Assembly: GCF_030068505.1 (NCBI RefSeq)
Contig: NZ_JAQOSO010000087.1
Location: 1-64,000, forward strand
Length of the DNA: 64,000 nucleotides
DNA from: Roseofilum capinflatum BLCC-M114
Lineage (GTDB): Bacteria; Cyanobacteriota; Cyanobacteriia; Cyanobacteriales; Desertifilaceae
Direction of reading: 5' to 3'
The notes under the pieces are model-generated. The model ran no database searches. It had not been told where the DNA came from and was given only the letters and a program-made list of their open reading frames with translations. Positions 1,768 to 60,349 of the stretch are shown piece by piece (within the stretch, counting starts at the first letter, position 1; each line of letters starts with the position of its first letter). The position numbers were made by a program, and so were the translations under genes.

Positions 1768-1805
1768 AAACCCTGCTAACGAGTTAGTAGGGTTTCGTTT
1801 TTGGC
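1768..1805. terminator. Bidirectional terminator after tRNA-Pro and phosphopantetheinyl transferase
   Basis: An 11-bp stem, AACCCTGCTAA with TTAGTAGGGTT (one G-U pair), is followed on the plus strand by TCGTTTTTGG and is preceded by CAAAAA, which reads as a T run on the minus strand. It can therefore stop both the tRNA transcript and the convergent phosphopantetheinyl transferase gene, whose TAG stop lies inside the stem. Confidence 0.8.
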
Positions 1806-2471
1806 GATCGCCTGTTGTTGCACCAGTTGCCAGTTGTTACCCTCAATAGCTACAGCCGCGACTGTACCGGGGGCAGGGGTCAAAGGATATAATGACCAGG
1901 CGCGATCGCTCACTTGTGCCCCATTTTCCGTTAATTGAATTTCGGCTTGTTCGAGTCCCGCTAACCCTTCCCCCATGGCTTTTAAGTAGGCTTCTTTGTA
2001 CGTCCAATAACGAAAAAAGGTATAGGGTTGTTCGGAAATTGGAGTTCGTTGAATCTGCTGATATTCTGAGGGTAAAAAGAACCGTTTAGCTAAACCGTCT
2101 AAGTCGTTCAGGGGGCGAATTGCTTCGAGATCTACACCAACAGGGGCATTGAGCGCAAAGCCATACAAGGCATAGTTTTGGGAGTGAGAGAGATTAAAGT
2201 TTAAGTCAGATTTCGGGACAGCTACGGCGGGTTTACCGCGCTGAGAATAAGTAAACTGAATCTCAGAGGGATGAACTTTTAAATACTGGGCGACTAAAGA
2301 GCGGAGAAGCCCCCGCGCCAGGATAAAATAGTGTCGATGCTCATCAAAGTGGAAACGCTGCGATCGCTCTAATTCATCGACACAGAGACAGGACTTCAAC
2401 TTGGCCAATTGTGGCATAAACTGATTTAAATCAGCCCACCAGAGGTGAAGCTGGCGATCGCATAACATCAT
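1776..2471 (-). CDS. 4'-phosphopantetheinyl transferase (Sfp/HetI type)
   Basis: A 231-residue enzyme that moves the phosphopantetheine arm of CoA onto carrier proteins of fatty-acid, polyketide or peptide synthases. The signature of the Sfp group is present: a central GVDLE motif (about residue 113-117, metal-binding Asp and Glu) and the YWTYKEAYLKA motif about 45 residues later. Length fits the family (220-240). Cyanobacteria usually have one such enzyme serving the acyl carrier protein and any secondary-metabolite carriers, known as HetI in Anabaena and Sppt in Synechocystis. It is upstream (on the minus strand, downstream in transcription) of the two RiPP precursor genes, with a gap of 55 bases from the nearer one. 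Confidence 0.92.
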   Translation of the reverse strand: MMLCDRQLHLWWADLNQFMPQLAKLKSCLCVDELERSQRFHFDEHRHYFILARGLLRSLVAQYLKVHPSEIQFTYSQRGKPAVAVPKSDLNFNLSHSQNYALYGFALNAPVGVDLEAIRPLNDLDGLAKRFFLPSEYQQIQRTPISEQPYTFFRYWTYKEAYLKAMGEGLAGLEQAEIQLTENGAQVSDRAWSLYPLTPAPGTVAAVAIEGNNWQLVQQQAIAKNETLLTR

Positions 2472-2526: not shown

Positions 2527-2892
2527 TTACCAATTGCGGAAGTTCACAAAACCACCCCCATCACGCCATCCATTGCGCCATCCTCCCCCATTACGAAATC
2601 CTCCATTACGAAATCCTCCCCCATTGCGAAACCCCCCCCCATTGCGGAACACATTGCGAAATTGGGCCAAATCTGGGTTTTTTCCGGTCTCAGAAGAGAA
2701 AGACTTCTCCTCTAGAGCCAGTTGTTGTTCTCTCGTGTTCAACGTTTCCGTTAATCGGTTTAAGCGCTGTTCCAGATCCACATTAGCACTAGAGAATTCA
2801 GATAAACTCCCTGTCGCTTGGGCAGGTGAAGCACTTAAGGTGGATAAGGCTAATAAAAAACCGACTAATCCGGTAGTTGTTGTAATTTTCAT
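2527..2892 (-). CDS. grrA: GrrA/OscA1-type RiPP precursor peptide, copy 1 (nine cyclophane motifs)
   Basis: A 121-residue precursor. Residues 1-27 form a hydrophobic leader resembling a signal peptide (MKITTTTGLVGFLLALSTLS, then PAQA). Residues 38-62 are a charged, probably helical leader segment with repeated LEQRLNRLTETL-like text. Residues 78-121 are a Gly/Asn/Arg-rich core built from three-residue aromatic motifs: FRN, FRN, FRN, FRN, FRN, WRN, WRD, FVN, FRN, mostly spaced by GGG. In the GrrA/OscA1 family the radical-SAM enzyme GrrM joins the aromatic ring of the first residue to the side chain of the third, making cyclophanes; the motif match is strong and the chemistry is inferred from the family. 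Start chosen at 2892 because AGGAGAG lies just upstream; the open frame runs 23 codons further. A second copy lies 100 bases upstream. Confidence 0.9.
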   Translation of the reverse strand: MKITTTTGLVGFLLALSTLSASPAQATGSLSEFSSANVDLEQRLNRLTETLNTREQQLALEEKSFSSETGKNPDLAQFRNVFRNGGGFRNGGGFRNGGFRNGGGWRNGWRDGGGFVNFRNW

Positions 2893-2992
2893 ACTCTCCT
2901 CTGGGTAAAAAATAAACTTCTTGCAGAAGTCAGCGAATAGGGATAAGAATACAAGATGCAAGATGACTTATCCAGTGTCAAAACTCCTTTAC

Positions 2993-3319
2993 TTATCGGT
3001 TACGGAAGTTAACAAAACTACCGCCATCACGCCACCCGTTACGCCATCCGCCACTATTGCGGAAACCGCCACCATTACGGAACGCATTGCGAAATGCAGC
3101 AAGATCTTGAGGAGAGTCTAGGGCAGAAGATAAGGGGTTGCTTTCTAACTGTTGTTCCCGATTTTGTAGGGTTTGAGTTAACCGATTTAAGCGCTGCTCC
3201 AGATTAGACGAGGGACTCGAAGATGGCGATAACCTTGAGGTACTCTGAGCGGGTAAAGCACTTAAGGTGGATAAGGCTAACAAAAAGCCGACTAATCCGG
3301 TAGTTGTGCTAATTTTCAT
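2993..3319 (-). CDS. grrA: GrrA/OscA1-type RiPP precursor peptide, copy 2 (seven cyclophane motifs)
   Basis: A 108-residue paralogue of the precursor at 2527. The leader is nearly the same (MKISTTTGLVGFLLALSTLS, then LPAQ), as is the LEQRLNRLTQTL segment (residues 40-51). The core at residues 76-108 carries FRN, FRN, FRN, WRN, WRD, FVN, FRN and ends in Arg instead of Trp. AGGAG precedes the ATG at a good distance. Leader conservation with a variable number of core units is what one expects of a tandem duplication whose copies are read by the same maturase. No radical-SAM (GrrM) or peptidase/export partner gene lies in this window, so the modifying enzyme must be elsewhere or absent. Confidence 0.9.
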   Translation of the reverse strand: MKISTTTGLVGFLLALSTLSALPAQSTSRLSPSSSPSSNLEQRLNRLTQTLQNREQQLESNPLSSALDSPQDLAAFRNAFRNGGGFRNSGGWRNGWRDGGSFVNFRNR

Positions 3320-3379: not shown

Positions 3380-4138
3380 CTAATAAGTGATAATATTCTG
3401 TATTACTTGGGCGATCGCATAAATCAACGGCGCTAACGCCAATGCTGGCAAAAATGAGGCAATCCGCAGCTTACCCATATCCAGCAAATTCAAGCCTAAG
3501 CCTAACATGATAATTCCACCGACTCCAGTTACCAGGAAAATACGCGGGTCGTTAGCGGGATTGGGTAAAATTTGAGTCAGGCTACTCGCCAGTAAAGAAA
3601 TCCCCCCTTGAAACACAATGATGGTGAGAATAGAAAATCCCACACCAATGCCATAACTACCCGTCAGCGCAATAGACACTAACCCATCCATCGTTGCTTT
3701 CAGAGCCAACAAACTATCATCACCCGTCAGTCCATTATTCAGGGAACCCACCAACGTTAAAGGCCCCACACAAAAGAGTAAACTAGCCGTAACAAACCCT
3801 TCTGTAAACCTTCCCCCTCCCCGAAACCAACTCTTTAGTTGAGAACCAACAGCATTGAGTCGCTCTTCCAATTGCCACCATTCCCCCAACAACCCACCCA
3901 AAGTTAAACTAATCACAGCCAACACCACCCCATCCACCGTTCCCGCTTGCGCTTGTGTTAAACTGCCCGCCATACTCATCCCCAAATATAGAGTAATTAA
4001 CCCCATACCCTGAGTAATGGTGCTTTGAATGCGCTGGGGCAGTTGATTTTTCAGTAACAACCCTAACCCCGTTCCCACCAATACCGTTGCTACATTAATC
4101 CAGGTTCCACTGGTTTTTACCCAAAAATCAAACATCAT
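3380..4138 (-). CDS. DUF554 family membrane protein
   Basis: A 252-residue polytopic inner-membrane protein with about seven hydrophobic segments rich in Gly and Leu. The early GTGLGLLLKNQLP motif, the central LLFCVGPLTLVGSLNNGLTGD and the following DGLVSIALTGSYGIGV segment match the DUF554 (YdfK-like) family, which may be a transporter but has no proven substrate. Length is typical (220-250). The start has two ATG codons; the first is used here. Confidence 0.85.
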   Translation of the reverse strand: MMFDFWVKTSGTWINVATVLVGTGLGLLLKNQLPQRIQSTITQGMGLITLYLGMSMAGSLTQAQAGTVDGVVLAVISLTLGGLLGEWWQLEERLNAVGSQLKSWFRGGGRFTEGFVTASLLFCVGPLTLVGSLNNGLTGDDSLLALKATMDGLVSIALTGSYGIGVGFSILTIIVFQGGISLLASSLTQILPNPANDPRIFLVTGVGGIIMLGLGLNLLDMGKLRIASFLPALALAPLIYAIAQVIQNIITY

Positions 4139-8832: not shown

Positions 8833-9657
8833 TCATAGAGTGCGATCGGTGAGAATCTCATAACCGTTCTCGGTCACCAAAACCGTATGCTCAAATTGGG
8901 CAGAAAGGGCATTATCCACCGTCACCACCGTCCATTGATCCGGTAAAACACGAGTAACTTTTGAACCTTCATTAATAATCGGTTCGATCGCCAATGTCAT
9001 TCCCGGACGCAGTTTCACATTGGGTAGGGCATCCGTGCGAAAGTTAAACACGGCGGGTTCTTCATGCAGGTTACGCCCCACTCCATGACCGGTATAATTT
9101 TCAACGATTGTATATCCATGGGGTTGCACATAATCTTCAATTCCACCCGCAATATCGAGCAGCGTATTACCCGGCTTCACTTGCTTTATCCCTTCATAGA
9201 GGGCTTGCTCTGCCACCTCCATGAGTTTTTGGGTTGATGCCGGAATCTTACCCACGGGAATTGTAATACACGAATCACCGTGATAACCCTGATAGTAGGC
9301 TCCCGTATCTACTTTCAATAAATCCCCTGATTTGAGGACTTGTTTACGGGAGGGAATCCCATGAACCACTTGATGATTTACGGAGGCACAAATAGAAGCC
9401 GGAAAGCCATGATACCCCTTAAAACTCGGTGTTGCCCCCATCTGACGAATCCGTTTTTCGGCATAGGCATCGAGATCGGCCGTCGTCATGCCCGGTTCTG
9501 CGAGTTCAGCAATTTCAGAGAGAACCGTAGCCACAATTTTACCACTGGTTCGCATAATCTCGATTTCGGGTTCTGATTTGATTTCAATGCCTCGATTCCG
9601 TTGACCGAAGAGGGGTTTCATTGTGGGTCGAGAGAAGAGTTTGGTCAAAATGTTCAT
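8833..9657 (-). CDS. map: Methionine aminopeptidase, type I
   Basis: A 274-residue cytosolic metallo-peptidase that removes the initiator Met. The catalytic fold and metal ligands are visible: the His of [20 protein letters not shown], Asp in [17 protein letters not shown], the His of [12 protein letters not shown], Glu in IEPIINEG and Glu in FEHTVLV. A 27-residue N-terminal extension ([15 protein letters not shown]) precedes the usual start of the type Ia fold; it lacks the zinc-finger Cys residues of eukaryotic forms. MAPs often follow ribosomal genes, but here it stands alone. Confidence 0.95.
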
Positions 9658-25418: not shown

Positions 25419-26219
25419 TTAGCGGTCTAATGGGGTTGAACTTTCATGCCATTGGCCTAAAATCAAGCTTGATACACGATTTAAAACCATAAAAATGAAG
25501 ATGCCCAAGAGACTAATAAGTAATAAGGCGGCAAACATGCGGGGTATTTCTAAGTTGTAGCTGGCGATCAGGATTTGGTAGGCTAATCCTGAATTCATGC
25601 CTCCTGTACCCGCGACAATTTCGGCAACCACAGCGCCAATTAAGGCTAATCCACCACTAATGCGTAATCCGGCGAAGAAATAGGGGAGGGCGCTTGGTAG
25701 TCTGAGATACAGCAAAGTTTGCCATCGAGATGCTTGATACAGTTTGAAGAGGTCTTTGAGGTTTGGATCGAGGCTATTGAGGCCGAAGGTAGTGTTAGAA
25801 ACGATGGGAAAAAAGGCGATAATCCAGGCGCAGATGACGAGGGCGGCGAAGGTATTATTACGCAGCCAAATAATGATTAGGGGAGCGATCGCCGCCATGG
25901 GAATAGTTTGCAGTATAATCGCGTAGGGATATAAACTTTTTTCAATCCATTTGCTCTGCGCCATAATCATGGCCAGAAATACCCCAGAAACTACGGCCAC
26001 CAGAAAGGCCACGAGGGTAATTTTGAAGGTCACTAGGGTTGCAGGAAGGAGAATGGAGCCATCTGCAATTAGGGTTTTTACGATCAGAATTGGCCCCGGT
26101 AGGATGTAGCTAGGGGTATGGGTGAGGGAGACGGAGATTTCCCAAACGGAGAGTACGAATATTCCTAGAGCGAGGGGAGCGAGGGTTTCTAGGGAAAACA
26201 GACGGCGCAATTCTGGCAT
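25419..26219 (-). CDS. ABC transporter permease, NitT/TauT (ThiX/SsuC-like) family
   Basis: A 266-residue inner-membrane subunit with six hydrophobic segments. The EAA loop that contacts the ATPase is at about 150-200 (LFKLYQASRWQTLLYLRLP, then FFAGLRISGGLALIGAVVAE). It starts three bases after the stop of the ATPase gene, so both are one operon with the binding protein at 27108. Confidence 0.92.
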   Translation of the reverse strand: MPELRRLFSLETLAPLALGIFVLSVWEISVSLTHTPSYILPGPILIVKTLIADGSILLPATLVTFKITLVAFLVAVVSGVFLAMIMAQSKWIEKSLYPYAIILQTIPMAAIAPLIIIWLRNNTFAALVICAWIIAFFPIVSNTTFGLNSLDPNLKDLFKLYQASRWQTLLYLRLPSALPYFFAGLRISGGLALIGAVVAEIVAGTGGMNSGLAYQILIASYNLEIPRMFAALLLISLLGIFIFMVLNRVSSLILGQWHESSTPLDR

Positions 26220-26222
26220 AGT

Positions 26223-26984
26223 CTAATGGGGAGTAATTGTTTGGGATAAGGCAGTGGCGACTTGTTGACAATACTCAGTATAGGCGATCGCCCCTCGAAA
26301 ACTGCGATCGCGGGGATAGGGTTCATCAATGGGAATTTCCGCCACAATGCGTCCGGGAGCCGTTCCCATCACCACCACCCGATGGGATAAATAAACCGCC
26401 TCATAGATATTGTGGGTGACAAATACAATTGTCCACTGTTTTTGGCCCCACAAATTTAACAGTTCATCATTTAACTGGGTGCGGGTAATATCATCTAAGG
26501 CTGCAAACGGCTCATCCATTAATAGCACTTGCGGATTATTCACCAGCGCTCTGGCAATAGAAACTCGCATTTTCATCCCCCCGGACAGTTGTCGGGGATA
26601 GGATTGAGAGACTTGTTCTAATTGCACTAATTTTAGAGCTTCTTGAATCTGAGCCTGGGCACTTTTCGGAGATACACCGGCCAGTTTGAGCGGTAAGTAA
26701 ACATTCTGCCACACCTTAGCCCAAGGCATTAAAGCCGCATCTTGAAACACAAACGCTAGTTGAGGCTTCTGGCCTGAATTGTCCCAGTTGAGCGTGCCAG
26801 AACTGAGGGAAGTTAAGCCAGACATCAGGCGCAGCAGGGTACTTTTGCCACATCCAGATGGCCCGACGAGGCTGAGAATTTCTGAGGAATAGAGGTTGAG
26901 AGTCAGATCGGCGATCGCCCAATTTTGGCGATCGAAACGTTTGCCAACCTCCTCTAGAGTCGCGATCGGTTTTTTCAACTCCAT
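26223..26984 (-). CDS. ABC transporter ATP-binding protein, NitT/TauT family
   Basis: A 253-residue ATPase with Walker A GPSGCGKST, the Q loop in FVFQDAALMPW, signature LSGGMKMRVSIARALV, Walker B VLLMDEPFAALD and the switch His in VTHNIYEAVYL. It energises the permease encoded next. The start is set at MELKKPIATLEE (26984); the frame runs 14 codons further to 27026. Confidence 0.93.
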   Translation of the reverse strand: MELKKPIATLEEVGKRFDRQNWAIADLTLNLYSSEILSLVGPSGCGKSTLLRLMSGLTSLSSGTLNWDNSGQKPQLAFVFQDAALMPWAKVWQNVYLPLKLAGVSPKSAQAQIQEALKLVQLEQVSQSYPRQLSGGMKMRVSIARALVNNPQVLLMDEPFAALDDITRTQLNDELLNLWGQKQWTIVFVTHNIYEAVYLSHRVVVMGTAPGRIVAEIPIDEPYPRDRSFRGAIAYTEYCQQVATALSQTITPH

Positions 26985-27026
26985 ACAGCCATCCTTCCCC
27001 CCTTCAACCGACTGTTGATACAGCAC

Positions 27027-27118
27027 TTTGCGCTGTTATGGTGTACAGTATTAAAGGCTCAAAGCCATGTACCACAACCCTATTCCCTATTCCCTATTCC
27101 CTATTCCCTAGCGCAAAG
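27027..27118. repeat. CCCTATT heptamer array and GCGCAAAGCGCT palindrome inside the ABC operon
   Basis: Between the ATPase and substrate-binding genes lie about four CCCTATT heptamers (27078-27109) directly followed by AGCGCAAAGCGCT, which overlaps the end of the binding-protein gene. The whole repeat type is the one seen at 6306, 11120 and 55130. Confidence 0.85.
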
Positions 27119-28145
27119 CGCTATAATAGTCCACTCCCTTATTCACAAACTTTAGGGTATATGCCTGATGATAATCTACCCCAGCATCCACCATACCCAA
27201 ATCAACCGTTGATTGGAAAAATTGCTTCCACCGTTCATCCGTCATCGCACCAATACCCAACGTTTTGGCCTCCCGCCCAGTCACAATCTCATACTCCTTA
27301 AGCTTCCTAAAACTATAATCGAGTAAATCATCCGTCATTTCAGGATTATCTTCTTTAATCAACCGATTTCCCGGCTTCGGATCGTCCAAATAACTATACC
27401 ATCCCCGAATCGACGCATCCACAAATCGATGAACTAAATCTGGAGAATTATTGACTAAGTTGCGCGTGGTTGTAATCGTAAAAGAATAGGGATTATAACC
27501 CGCATCTGCCAACAGATGCACAATCGGCTTAAATCCTCCTTTTTGTTCAATGGTGTAAGGTTCAGAGGTTAAAACCCCCTGTTGAGAAGAGGTTTCATCG
27601 ACTAAAAATGGCGTAACATTAGAATTATAGGGGCGAATTTGATTATCTGTAAATCCATAATTTTGTTTCAAAATTGGCCAATACGTGAATCGTGCCCCAG
27701 CAGAGATAAAAATGGGTTTTCCTTTTAAGTCAGCCAGGGAATCATTGCCCACTTTTGGATGGCTTAACAGCACTTGAATATTTTTCTGAAACAGGGAGGC
27801 AACTGTAATTAAGGGAATATTTTTTTCTATGGCTTTGAAAATATTGAGAGCAATTCCCATGTTGAACTCTACCGCACCGCCGAGGAGTAGCTGAGTGCTA
27901 TTAGTTTGGGGATTCACTGGCCGGATGGTTACATCTAAGCCGTGTTTTTGATATATTCCAGTTGCTAAAGCTTGATAAAATCCCCCATATTCAGCTTCAG
28001 CTTTCCAACTGAGGGCAAAATTTATGGAGTGTAACGAATGATTTTTTGTGCTGGGAGGGGAGGACGTAGAGAGTAAGCCACCCCCTAATCCGAAGGAACT
28101 TAGGTGTAGAAATTGGCGGCGAGAAATAGAGAAATCTTGAGTCAT
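27108..28145 (-). CDS. ABC transporter substrate-binding protein, NMT1/THI5-like, Tat-exported
   Basis: A 345-residue periplasmic binding protein. The N terminus SISRRQFLHLSSFGLGGG is a twin-arginine signal. The NMT1/THI5-like fold is shown by FALSWKAEAEYGGFYQALATGIYQ, LLGGAVEFNMG and the repeated Asp/Gly text. Relatives bind thiamine precursors such as formylaminopyrimidine or hydroxymethylpyrimidine, but also other small organics. No thiamine gene or TPP riboswitch lies here, so the ligand is open. Its first gene position in an operon with ATPase and permease is normal. Confidence 0.87.
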   Translation of the reverse strand: MTQDFSISRRQFLHLSSFGLGGGLLSTSSPPSTKNHSLHSINFALSWKAEAEYGGFYQALATGIYQKHGLDVTIRPVNPQTNSTQLLLGGAVEFNMGIALNIFKAIEKNIPLITVASLFQKNIQVLLSHPKVGNDSLADLKGKPIFISAGARFTYWPILKQNYGFTDNQIRPYNSNVTPFLVDETSSQQGVLTSEPYTIEQKGGFKPIVHLLADAGYNPYSFTITTTRNLVNNSPDLVHRFVDASIRGWYSYLDDPKPGNRLIKEDNPEMTDDLLDYSFRKLKEYEIVTGREAKTLGIGAMTDERWKQFFQSTVDLGMVDAGVDYHQAYTLKFVNKGVDYYSALR

Positions 28146-28219
28146 ATAAAAAAGTAGGGTAAGCAAGTCGATAAAGGTGACTTCTCAATTTTTAATTTTG
28201 AATTGAATGAGGGCAACCC

Positions 28220-59461: not shown

Positions 59462-60349
59462 TTATTTTTTGGGACTGAGATAATGACTGGGAATGGGAAA
59501 AGCGGGCATTTCGACAAATTCGCGAATGGTTTTGAAGTATTCTTCTCCAGCGAGAGGGGCAACGGTACTATGATCGCCAGGGGGAAAGAGCCAGAGCTTT
59601 TTAGGTTCTGGAGCAGCCGCAAAAAGTTCTTCGCTCATAAAGGAGGGAACGGCGGTATCTTGTAGGCCATGAATGAAGAGGGTGGGCATTTTTAAGTGAG
59701 GAGCTTTAGCTAGGGAATTAAATTGATTTTGCAATAAAAGATCGATGGGTAAGATATTGAGTAAAGGATAGCGATAATCGCCCATGCGCCGCAGTGAGGT
59801 AAACGATCCTTCAATGATTAAATGGGAAATTTCGGGGTGTTTTGTGGCTAACTCTATACCTATTGCTCCCCCTAGGGAATGACCATACACTACAATCTGT
59901 TCTGGGGCGATCCCCCGCTCTTTGACCAAGTATTGCCAGATGGTCTGGGTATCGTCATAAACTTGTTTTTCCGTGGGAAATTCCCCTTGAGATTGACCAT
60001 ATCCGCGATAATCGAAGAGGAAAACGGAAAAGCCAAGATGGTAAAATCGTCCGGAGTGATAGGCGTTTGCGCCAATGTTATCGGCGTTACCATGGAGATA
60101 GAGGAGTACGCGATCGCTTCTTTCATTGGGAATCCACCAGCTATGTAACTTGACTCCGGGTTCCACAGACTCTACCCAAATGTCCTCATAGTCTAACCCA
60201 ATATCGGCTGGGGTGCGGGTAATTTCTTCGACGGGGAAAAAAATCAACCGGGTTTGTGTAGCCCAAAAATACCAACAGAGTGTTCCATAGGCGATCGCTA
60301 AACCGGCCAAAAAAATCCATAATCCTTGATGAAATAAGGCCATCAACAT
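59462..60349 (-). CDS. Membrane-anchored alpha/beta hydrolase (BEM46-like)
   Basis: A 295-residue protein with one N-terminal helix (about 5-27) and an alpha/beta hydrolase fold. Visible are [14 protein letters not shown] (oxyanion), [14 protein letters not shown] (Ser nucleophile), the Asp of [11 protein letters not shown] and the His in FPPGDHSTV. The HGNADNIG motif places it with the BEM46/ABHD13-like group. Substrate unknown. Confidence 0.87.

Follow-up and report, generated by a model that had tools for sequence, protein, structure and literature searches.

The two adjacent genes P0001 and P0002 of Roseofilum capinflatum BLCC-M114, located in a stretch of 64,000 nucleotides that was analysed as a whole (hereafter, the window), probably belong to a known triceptide system in which both, as paralogous precursors of the GrrA/OscA type, are modified in trans by a single maturase, GrrM/OscB. 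The maturase and the accompanying protein GrrP are encoded in the same genome, each on a different contig. This is a RiPP system of a known kind whose layout conceals it from mining by gene neighbourhood, together with a methyltransferase gene that is specific to the genus. Searches that expect the precursor beside the maturase would presumably class P0001 and P0002 as orphans.

In the proposed working of the system, GrrM from another contig would modify both P0001 and P0002 in trans and, by analogy with OscB, would link every Phe or Trp to the Cβ of an Asn or Asp located two positions further along the chain, resulting in up to nine (P0001) and seven (P0002) three-residue rings. For OscB (IPR026357), C7(Trp)–Cβ(Asn/Asp) and C4(Phe)–Cβ(Asn) links to the residue two positions on have been described (PMC11002830). 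Export through the general secretion route, directed by the signal-like N-terminus, would follow, and GrrP, a solute-binding-like protein, may bind the peptide outside, the simplest order being modification first, general secretion after it and GrrP outside.

The precursor pair and its neighbours

Both precursor genes lie on the minus strand in head-to-tail order, separated by 100 bases, with P0002 (2993..3319, 108 aa) as the upstream paralogue and P0001 (2527..2892, 121 aa) following it, and GGAG or AGGAG is found close 5' of each ATG. Their leaders are near-identical, MKI(T/S)TTTGLVGFLLALSTLS followed by a LEQRLNRLT stretch, and the leader of P0001 contains a conserved LEQRLNRLTETL stretch after a hydrophobic, secretion-signal-like N-terminus. 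The N-terminal hydropathy peak of the precursors (1.7-2.0 as a 15-residue mean) is signal-like, and an AQA-type cleavage site can be recognized by eye. In translation, the Gly/Arg-rich core of P0001 (2530..2661, minus strand, from the first FRN to the final residue) carries nine aromatic-x-Asn/Asp motifs (FRN five times, WRN, WRD, FVN and FRN) and ends in Trp, and that of P0002 (2996..3094, minus strand), also Gly/Arg-rich, carries seven and ends in Arg; in neither core do consecutive motifs have a residue in common. The motif counts were never reached by shuffling (20,000 shuffles per core; means of 1.91 for P0001 and 1.37 for P0002), and the aromatic residues open a motif in 9 of 10 cases in the P0001 core and in 7 of 7 in that of P0002.

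Both proteins exceed the cut-off of 31 bits of the NCBIfam model for GrrA/OscA1 (TIGR04260), P0001 with 76.2 bits and P0002 with 39.2 bits, and display the traits of that family, a conserved leader and a repeated aromatic-x-Asn/Asp core, while no Pfam family is matched by either at its cut-off. The initial annotation, which had described from this place two GrrA-like precursors with near-identical leaders, nine and seven motifs, and Trp and Arg as the respective last residues, was accurate on all of these points. It had also recommended a genome search for further precursors sharing the leader; when the genome was searched by leader pattern and by family model, no additional precursor exceeded the cut-off. 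Two weak matches to the GrrA family were rejected as precursors, one (C84:85822) being antisense to a long frame that is polyketide-synthase-like by eye and the other (C26:27176) lying within a 723-aa frame with a part that is, again by eye, von-Willebrand-like. Promoter-like sites numbered 0 vs 1.5 in shuffles, and terminator-like sites 2 vs 1.4.

Directly upstream of the precursors lies the gene of a DUF554 protein (3380..4138, minus strand; PF04474, 234 bits), which shows 91-92% identity and keeps its order beside GrrA in four Roseofilum relatives. It is, by sequence, a conserved GrrA neighbour in five Roseofilum genomes, a functional link being a candidate only. On the other side, the 4'-phosphopantetheinyl transferase gene of Sfp/HetI type (1776..2471, minus strand; PF01648, 67 bits; 243 bits against the HetI model, under its cut-off of 370) is rejected as a partner, as it has no homologue in the stretches around GrrA of the four other Roseofilum genomes, in line with the earlier remark that it is not known to be one. 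A tRNA-Pro(TGG) is located at 1648-1721, about 0.8 kb past the precursors, and the flank on its side of GrrA varies among the Roseofilum genomes seen.

The contig of the window (C87) contains none of the 22 Radical_SAM matches of the genome, 21 of which are over the cut-off, so that the initial statement that no radical-SAM gene lies in the 64 kb stands; its companion statement, that no peptidase lies there either, does not, since a Peptidase_M24 protein, presumably of the methionine-aminopeptidase type, is encoded at 8833-9657, and 59462-60349 holds an alpha/beta hydrolase gene whose product matches Peptidase_S9. An ABC permease, an ATPase and an NMT1/THI5-like binding protein are also present at 25419-28166. 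No RiPP leader peptidase or exporter was evident in a Pfam scan of 27 of the 63 thinned window ORFs, including both precursors.

GrrM and GrrP in this genome and its relatives

The window genome (G000, 5.37 Mb, a draft assembly of 120 contigs with 99% completeness) encodes, around C102:69396-70484, a GrrM/OscB of 384 aa that scores 607.7-607.9 bits (TIGR04261, cut-off 310) and is the sole protein over that cut-off. This family, named GrrM/OscB in NCBIfam, is presumably the same as IPR026357. The protein has the CxxxCxxC motif (C21, C25, C28), and eight cysteines are invariant in eight aligned proteins. A single GrrP is located at C84:65815-66594 (250.2 bits; TIGR04262, cut-off 190). GrrA, GrrM and GrrP thus occupy three separate contigs, and GrrA and GrrM lie at least 67 kb apart, a lower bound computed from the contig ends; the usual placement of GrrM within a few kb of GrrA, which the model does not demand, is not seen in this genome. 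In control searches for GrrM, GrrA and GrrP, weak matches appeared in 9, 3 and 9 of 14 genomes, respectively, and matches over the cut-off in none of the 14. The search for a GrrM-type radical-SAM/SPASM enzyme, also recommended at the outset, led to C102. As GrrM and GrrP are encoded in the same genome, the precursors are not orphans, and between the two options left by the initial annotation, modification in trans or orphaned precursors, the genome favours the first and lends no support to the second.

Among 59 genomes (the own genome and others of the genus, family and order), 10 have a GrrM over its cut-off, 9 a GrrA and 10 a GrrP, and all nine GrrA-positive genomes have both GrrM and GrrP; for GrrA with GrrM the Fisher p is 8e-10, a value that is overstated because the genomes are related to each other. 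GrrA-like matches below the cut-off occur without GrrM in two genomes (G026 and G050), another (G033) has GrrM only, without GrrA and 108 bases from a contig end, and a further one (G027) has GrrP only, just at the cut-off. Within Roseofilum, to which G003 and G005 also belong, five of the six genomes contain all three genes and one (G004) contains none. At the GrrA site, G004 has kept the DUF554 gene (82% identical) with no GrrA beside it; there, a prolyl-oligopeptidase-like frame, seen by eye, adjoins the DUF554 gene. The GrrP of G002 is 43% identical to that of the window genome and, given this low identity, may be another paralogue. In a Prochloraceae MAG (G032; L014, L022, L023, L024), four GrrM copies were observed, each with a GrrA or GrrA-like frame near it, one such frame (L040) being below the cut-off and having FGD/FAD-type motifs.

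The linkage of the two genes was followed in the best 80 of 319 GrrM relatives found by scan, of which 50 are flanked by 3 kb or more on either side and 30 have short flanks, with a GrrA profile built from 14 sequences, both window precursors among them. Within 3 kb of GrrM, GrrA was found in 40 of these 50 full-flank loci and GrrP in 35, and 16 of the 50 hold two or more precursors; the figure for GrrA is a lower count, since the profile missed tryptophan-rich precursor-like peptides beside GrrM at L149. The ten loci that lack a GrrA hit at this distance comprise two of Roseofilum, five of Microcystis, L147, L152 (with GrrA at 7.5 kb) and L149. When the neighbours in 79 of the 80 loci were clustered (L142 dropped out because ORF thinning had removed its GrrM), GrrA (45 loci) and GrrP (44) were the only families near GrrM in more than 8. 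Since these alone are frequent near GrrM, and since the N-terminus of GrrA resembles a secretion signal, the missing peptidase and exporter near the precursors are nothing special to the Roseofilum locus.

For 15 loci at which no GrrA was visible, the genome was searched, and 10 of these genomes contain one over the cut-off. In Microcystis this applies to 7 of 7 genomes, where GrrA adjoins GrrP on a contig other than that of GrrM, at a distance from GrrM of at least about 7 kb by arithmetic from the contig ends; one copy (G063) is interrupted. G015 consists of a single contig, with GrrA and GrrP at 1.354 Mb and, after a gap of 2.27 Mb (about 1.4 Mb the other way round if the contig is circular), GrrM at 3.620 Mb; in a congener (G043) the three genes are together. 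The separation of GrrA from GrrM probably arose more than once. These split systems resemble that of the window genome in having GrrM away from GrrA, but their GrrA and GrrP stay side by side, whereas GrrP in Roseofilum lies on a third contig.

Within Roseofilum, the minimum distances between GrrA and GrrM, again from contig ends, are 67 kb (G000), 25 kb (G001), 12.5 kb (G003) and 47 kb (G005). In G002, the GrrM contig opens with the end of a GrrA gene (18 codons and the stop, with one motif Asn replaced by His), about 1.05 kb upstream of GrrM and in the same orientation, and the GrrA contig breaks off inside the core; bases 3-228 of the stretch on the GrrM contig match the GrrA end of G001 and the DNA that follows it at 90%, and the two contig ends are likely parts of one GrrA gene. 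G002 and the window genome share 94% identity in GrrM. Judged by sequence, Roseofilum thus shows linkage as well as separation, with enzymes that are almost the same, and the linked locus is the best evidence that the GrrM of the window genome belongs with the precursors. The closest GrrM proteins outside the genus (L076 and L077; 66-67% identical) are linked to GrrA as well, so that the linked state is probably the older one. The occurrence of both states in one genus offers a direct test of whether the maturase needs the precursor's leader only and no shared operon.

Between the GrrA tail and GrrM of G002 (L107, about 60-1050; contig of L061), two small frames resemble, by eye, an antitoxin/PIN-toxin pair, the second having an in-frame stop, and mobile DNA possibly lies between precursor and maturase there. 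The GrrA of G002 (L066) seems, also by eye, to combine a P0002-type start with a P0001-type body, pointing to recombination among tandem GrrA copies.

The methyltransferase gene beside GrrM

Directly 3' of GrrM lies a gene for a class I methyltransferase of 251 aa (PF13649, 73 bits), for which no NCBIfam family reaches its cut-off among the 25 matches listed, of 31. It follows GrrM in all five GrrM-bearing Roseofilum genomes, at 83-95% identity, and its start overlaps the GrrM end by 8 bases in three of them (G000, G002 and G003). In G005, the two genes are 95 bases apart; in this junction (L063:8574-8670) the overlap sequence occurs a second time, as after a short duplication separating the genes. 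Among the other genes of the GrrM stretch of the window genome, a single one has a homologue in the stretches of the relatives, in G003. No match to the methyltransferase was found at E 1e-10 in G004.

From its position, the enzyme is a possible candidate for a further tailoring step on the peptide. The Roseofilum maturase may even have gained a dedicated methyltransferase, forming a two-gene unit that would be mobile apart from the precursors and would make a methylated triceptide, although this proposal is tentative and rather doubtful; if true, the combination would be one unmet in the other 77 GrrM loci (of the best 80 of 319), and the gene offers a concrete candidate for extra tailoring in triceptides. 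It may well be, instead, that the methyltransferase gene sits there by chance and serves an independent function. Homologues at E 1e-10 are widespread: 30 of the 59 genomes have one, 25 of these genomes belonging to other genera (identity up to 54%) and mostly lacking GrrM, and the four homologues viewed have other surroundings; moreover, the pairing with GrrM is limited to one genus, occurring in 3 of the 80 loci, all of Roseofilum, in a set (the best 80 of 319) in which 30 have short flanks. Related genomes have neighbours in common by descent, and one deletion could explain the loss of both genes in G004. An accident accords less well with the 8-base overlap in three genomes and with the joint presence of the two genes in 5 of 5 genomes, where the flanking genes mostly differ from those of the window genome.

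An oxygenase-like gene (Fe(II)/2-oxoglutarate type, by eye; L059:8669-9214) is divergent from GrrM in the window genome; the four other Roseofilum genomes show no homologue of it in stretches of 10-16 kb surrounding their GrrM, and a relative of it was seen near GrrM in one of the 80 loci, in Adonisia (L149:12114-12695).

Selection, alternatives to the proposed modification in trans and related systems

The ratios dN/dS between the window genome and its relatives, by a simple counting method that omits gapped columns, are 0.14-0.18 for P0001 (four relatives), 0.23 for P0002 (against its counterpart in G001), 0.07-0.09 for GrrM and 0.12-0.20 for the methyltransferase. In G001 (L060, L065), GrrM is truncated to 361 of its 384 residues, and the upstream GrrA copy lacks an ATG in the normal start position; these defects are due to decay or sequencing error, one of which thus occurs in the genus. 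Such a picture would fit precursors that were orphans or relics, unmodified since their parting from the maturase and with decaying genes, and the location of GrrM away from the precursors and the missing GrrA at the corresponding site of G004 are also in accordance with it. Nevertheless, this explanation is improbable, as the low ratios for GrrA (0.14-0.23) and GrrM argue against decay, GrrM is full-length in the window's own genome, and the three separate genes are present or absent jointly in the genus.

It is more improbable still that another radical-SAM enzyme of the genome modifies the peptides: there are 22 Radical_SAM matches to choose from, including a second, weak match to the GrrM model (C79:45833-46150, 28.3 bits), but only one protein exceeds the GrrM cut-off of 310 bits, the genome search gave no GrrA match on C79, and in G002 it is GrrM that has a GrrA end near it. 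Equally slight is the chance that the GrrA proteins are unmodified, secreted, Gly/Arg-rich binders of a surface or of nucleic acid in which the motif is structural, which the signal-like N-terminus and the composition of the core would fit, but which is opposed by a number of motifs far above that in shuffles, by the co-occurrence of GrrA with GrrM and by the published chemistry of the homologous OscA/OscB pair.

Modification of both precursors by GrrM would also agree with the matching of partners across loci. The similarity of GrrM and that of GrrA to the proteins of the window genome correlate in 60 loci (Spearman rho 0.48, p 9e-5), a correlation that is partly due to shared host ancestry; these are the 66 loci with GrrA minus three without a BLAST score and three duplicates (L014, L023 and L024, identical to L103, L078 and L143). 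In this set, L077 and L076 rank as the first two for both proteins, and GWRDGGGF(F/V)N is common to their cores and that of P0001.

The known GrrA/OscA1–GrrM/OscB system comprises, as here, a leader, a core of repeated aromatic-x-Asn/Asp motifs, GrrM and GrrP, and often has tandem precursors. The Roseofilum system differs from the usual one in that its three parts lie on three contigs (in the window genome), its core motifs are mostly FRN/WRN, and a methyltransferase gene follows GrrM. RiPP-like clusters have been described in nine Roseofilum MAGs, the terms 'triceptide' and 'radical SAM' being absent from the available part of that text (PMC9967302), and bacteriocin and cyanobactin clusters have been reported in another article, whose available part does not contain 'radical SAM' (PMC5394123). 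According to the former, Roseofilum reptotaenium dominates the mats of coral black band disease (PMC9967302). Nothing in the present analysis points to a role of GrrA peptides in this disease. In having one enzyme for several precursors, the window system is similar to the prochlorosins, the ProcA genes of which are located away from ProcM. Prochlorosins are lanthipeptides, and ProcM has been called 'a solitary promiscuous enzyme' that serves many ProcA precursors, up to 83 in one strain (PMC10783134), whereas the window system, which by analogy would be of the cyclophane type, has two.
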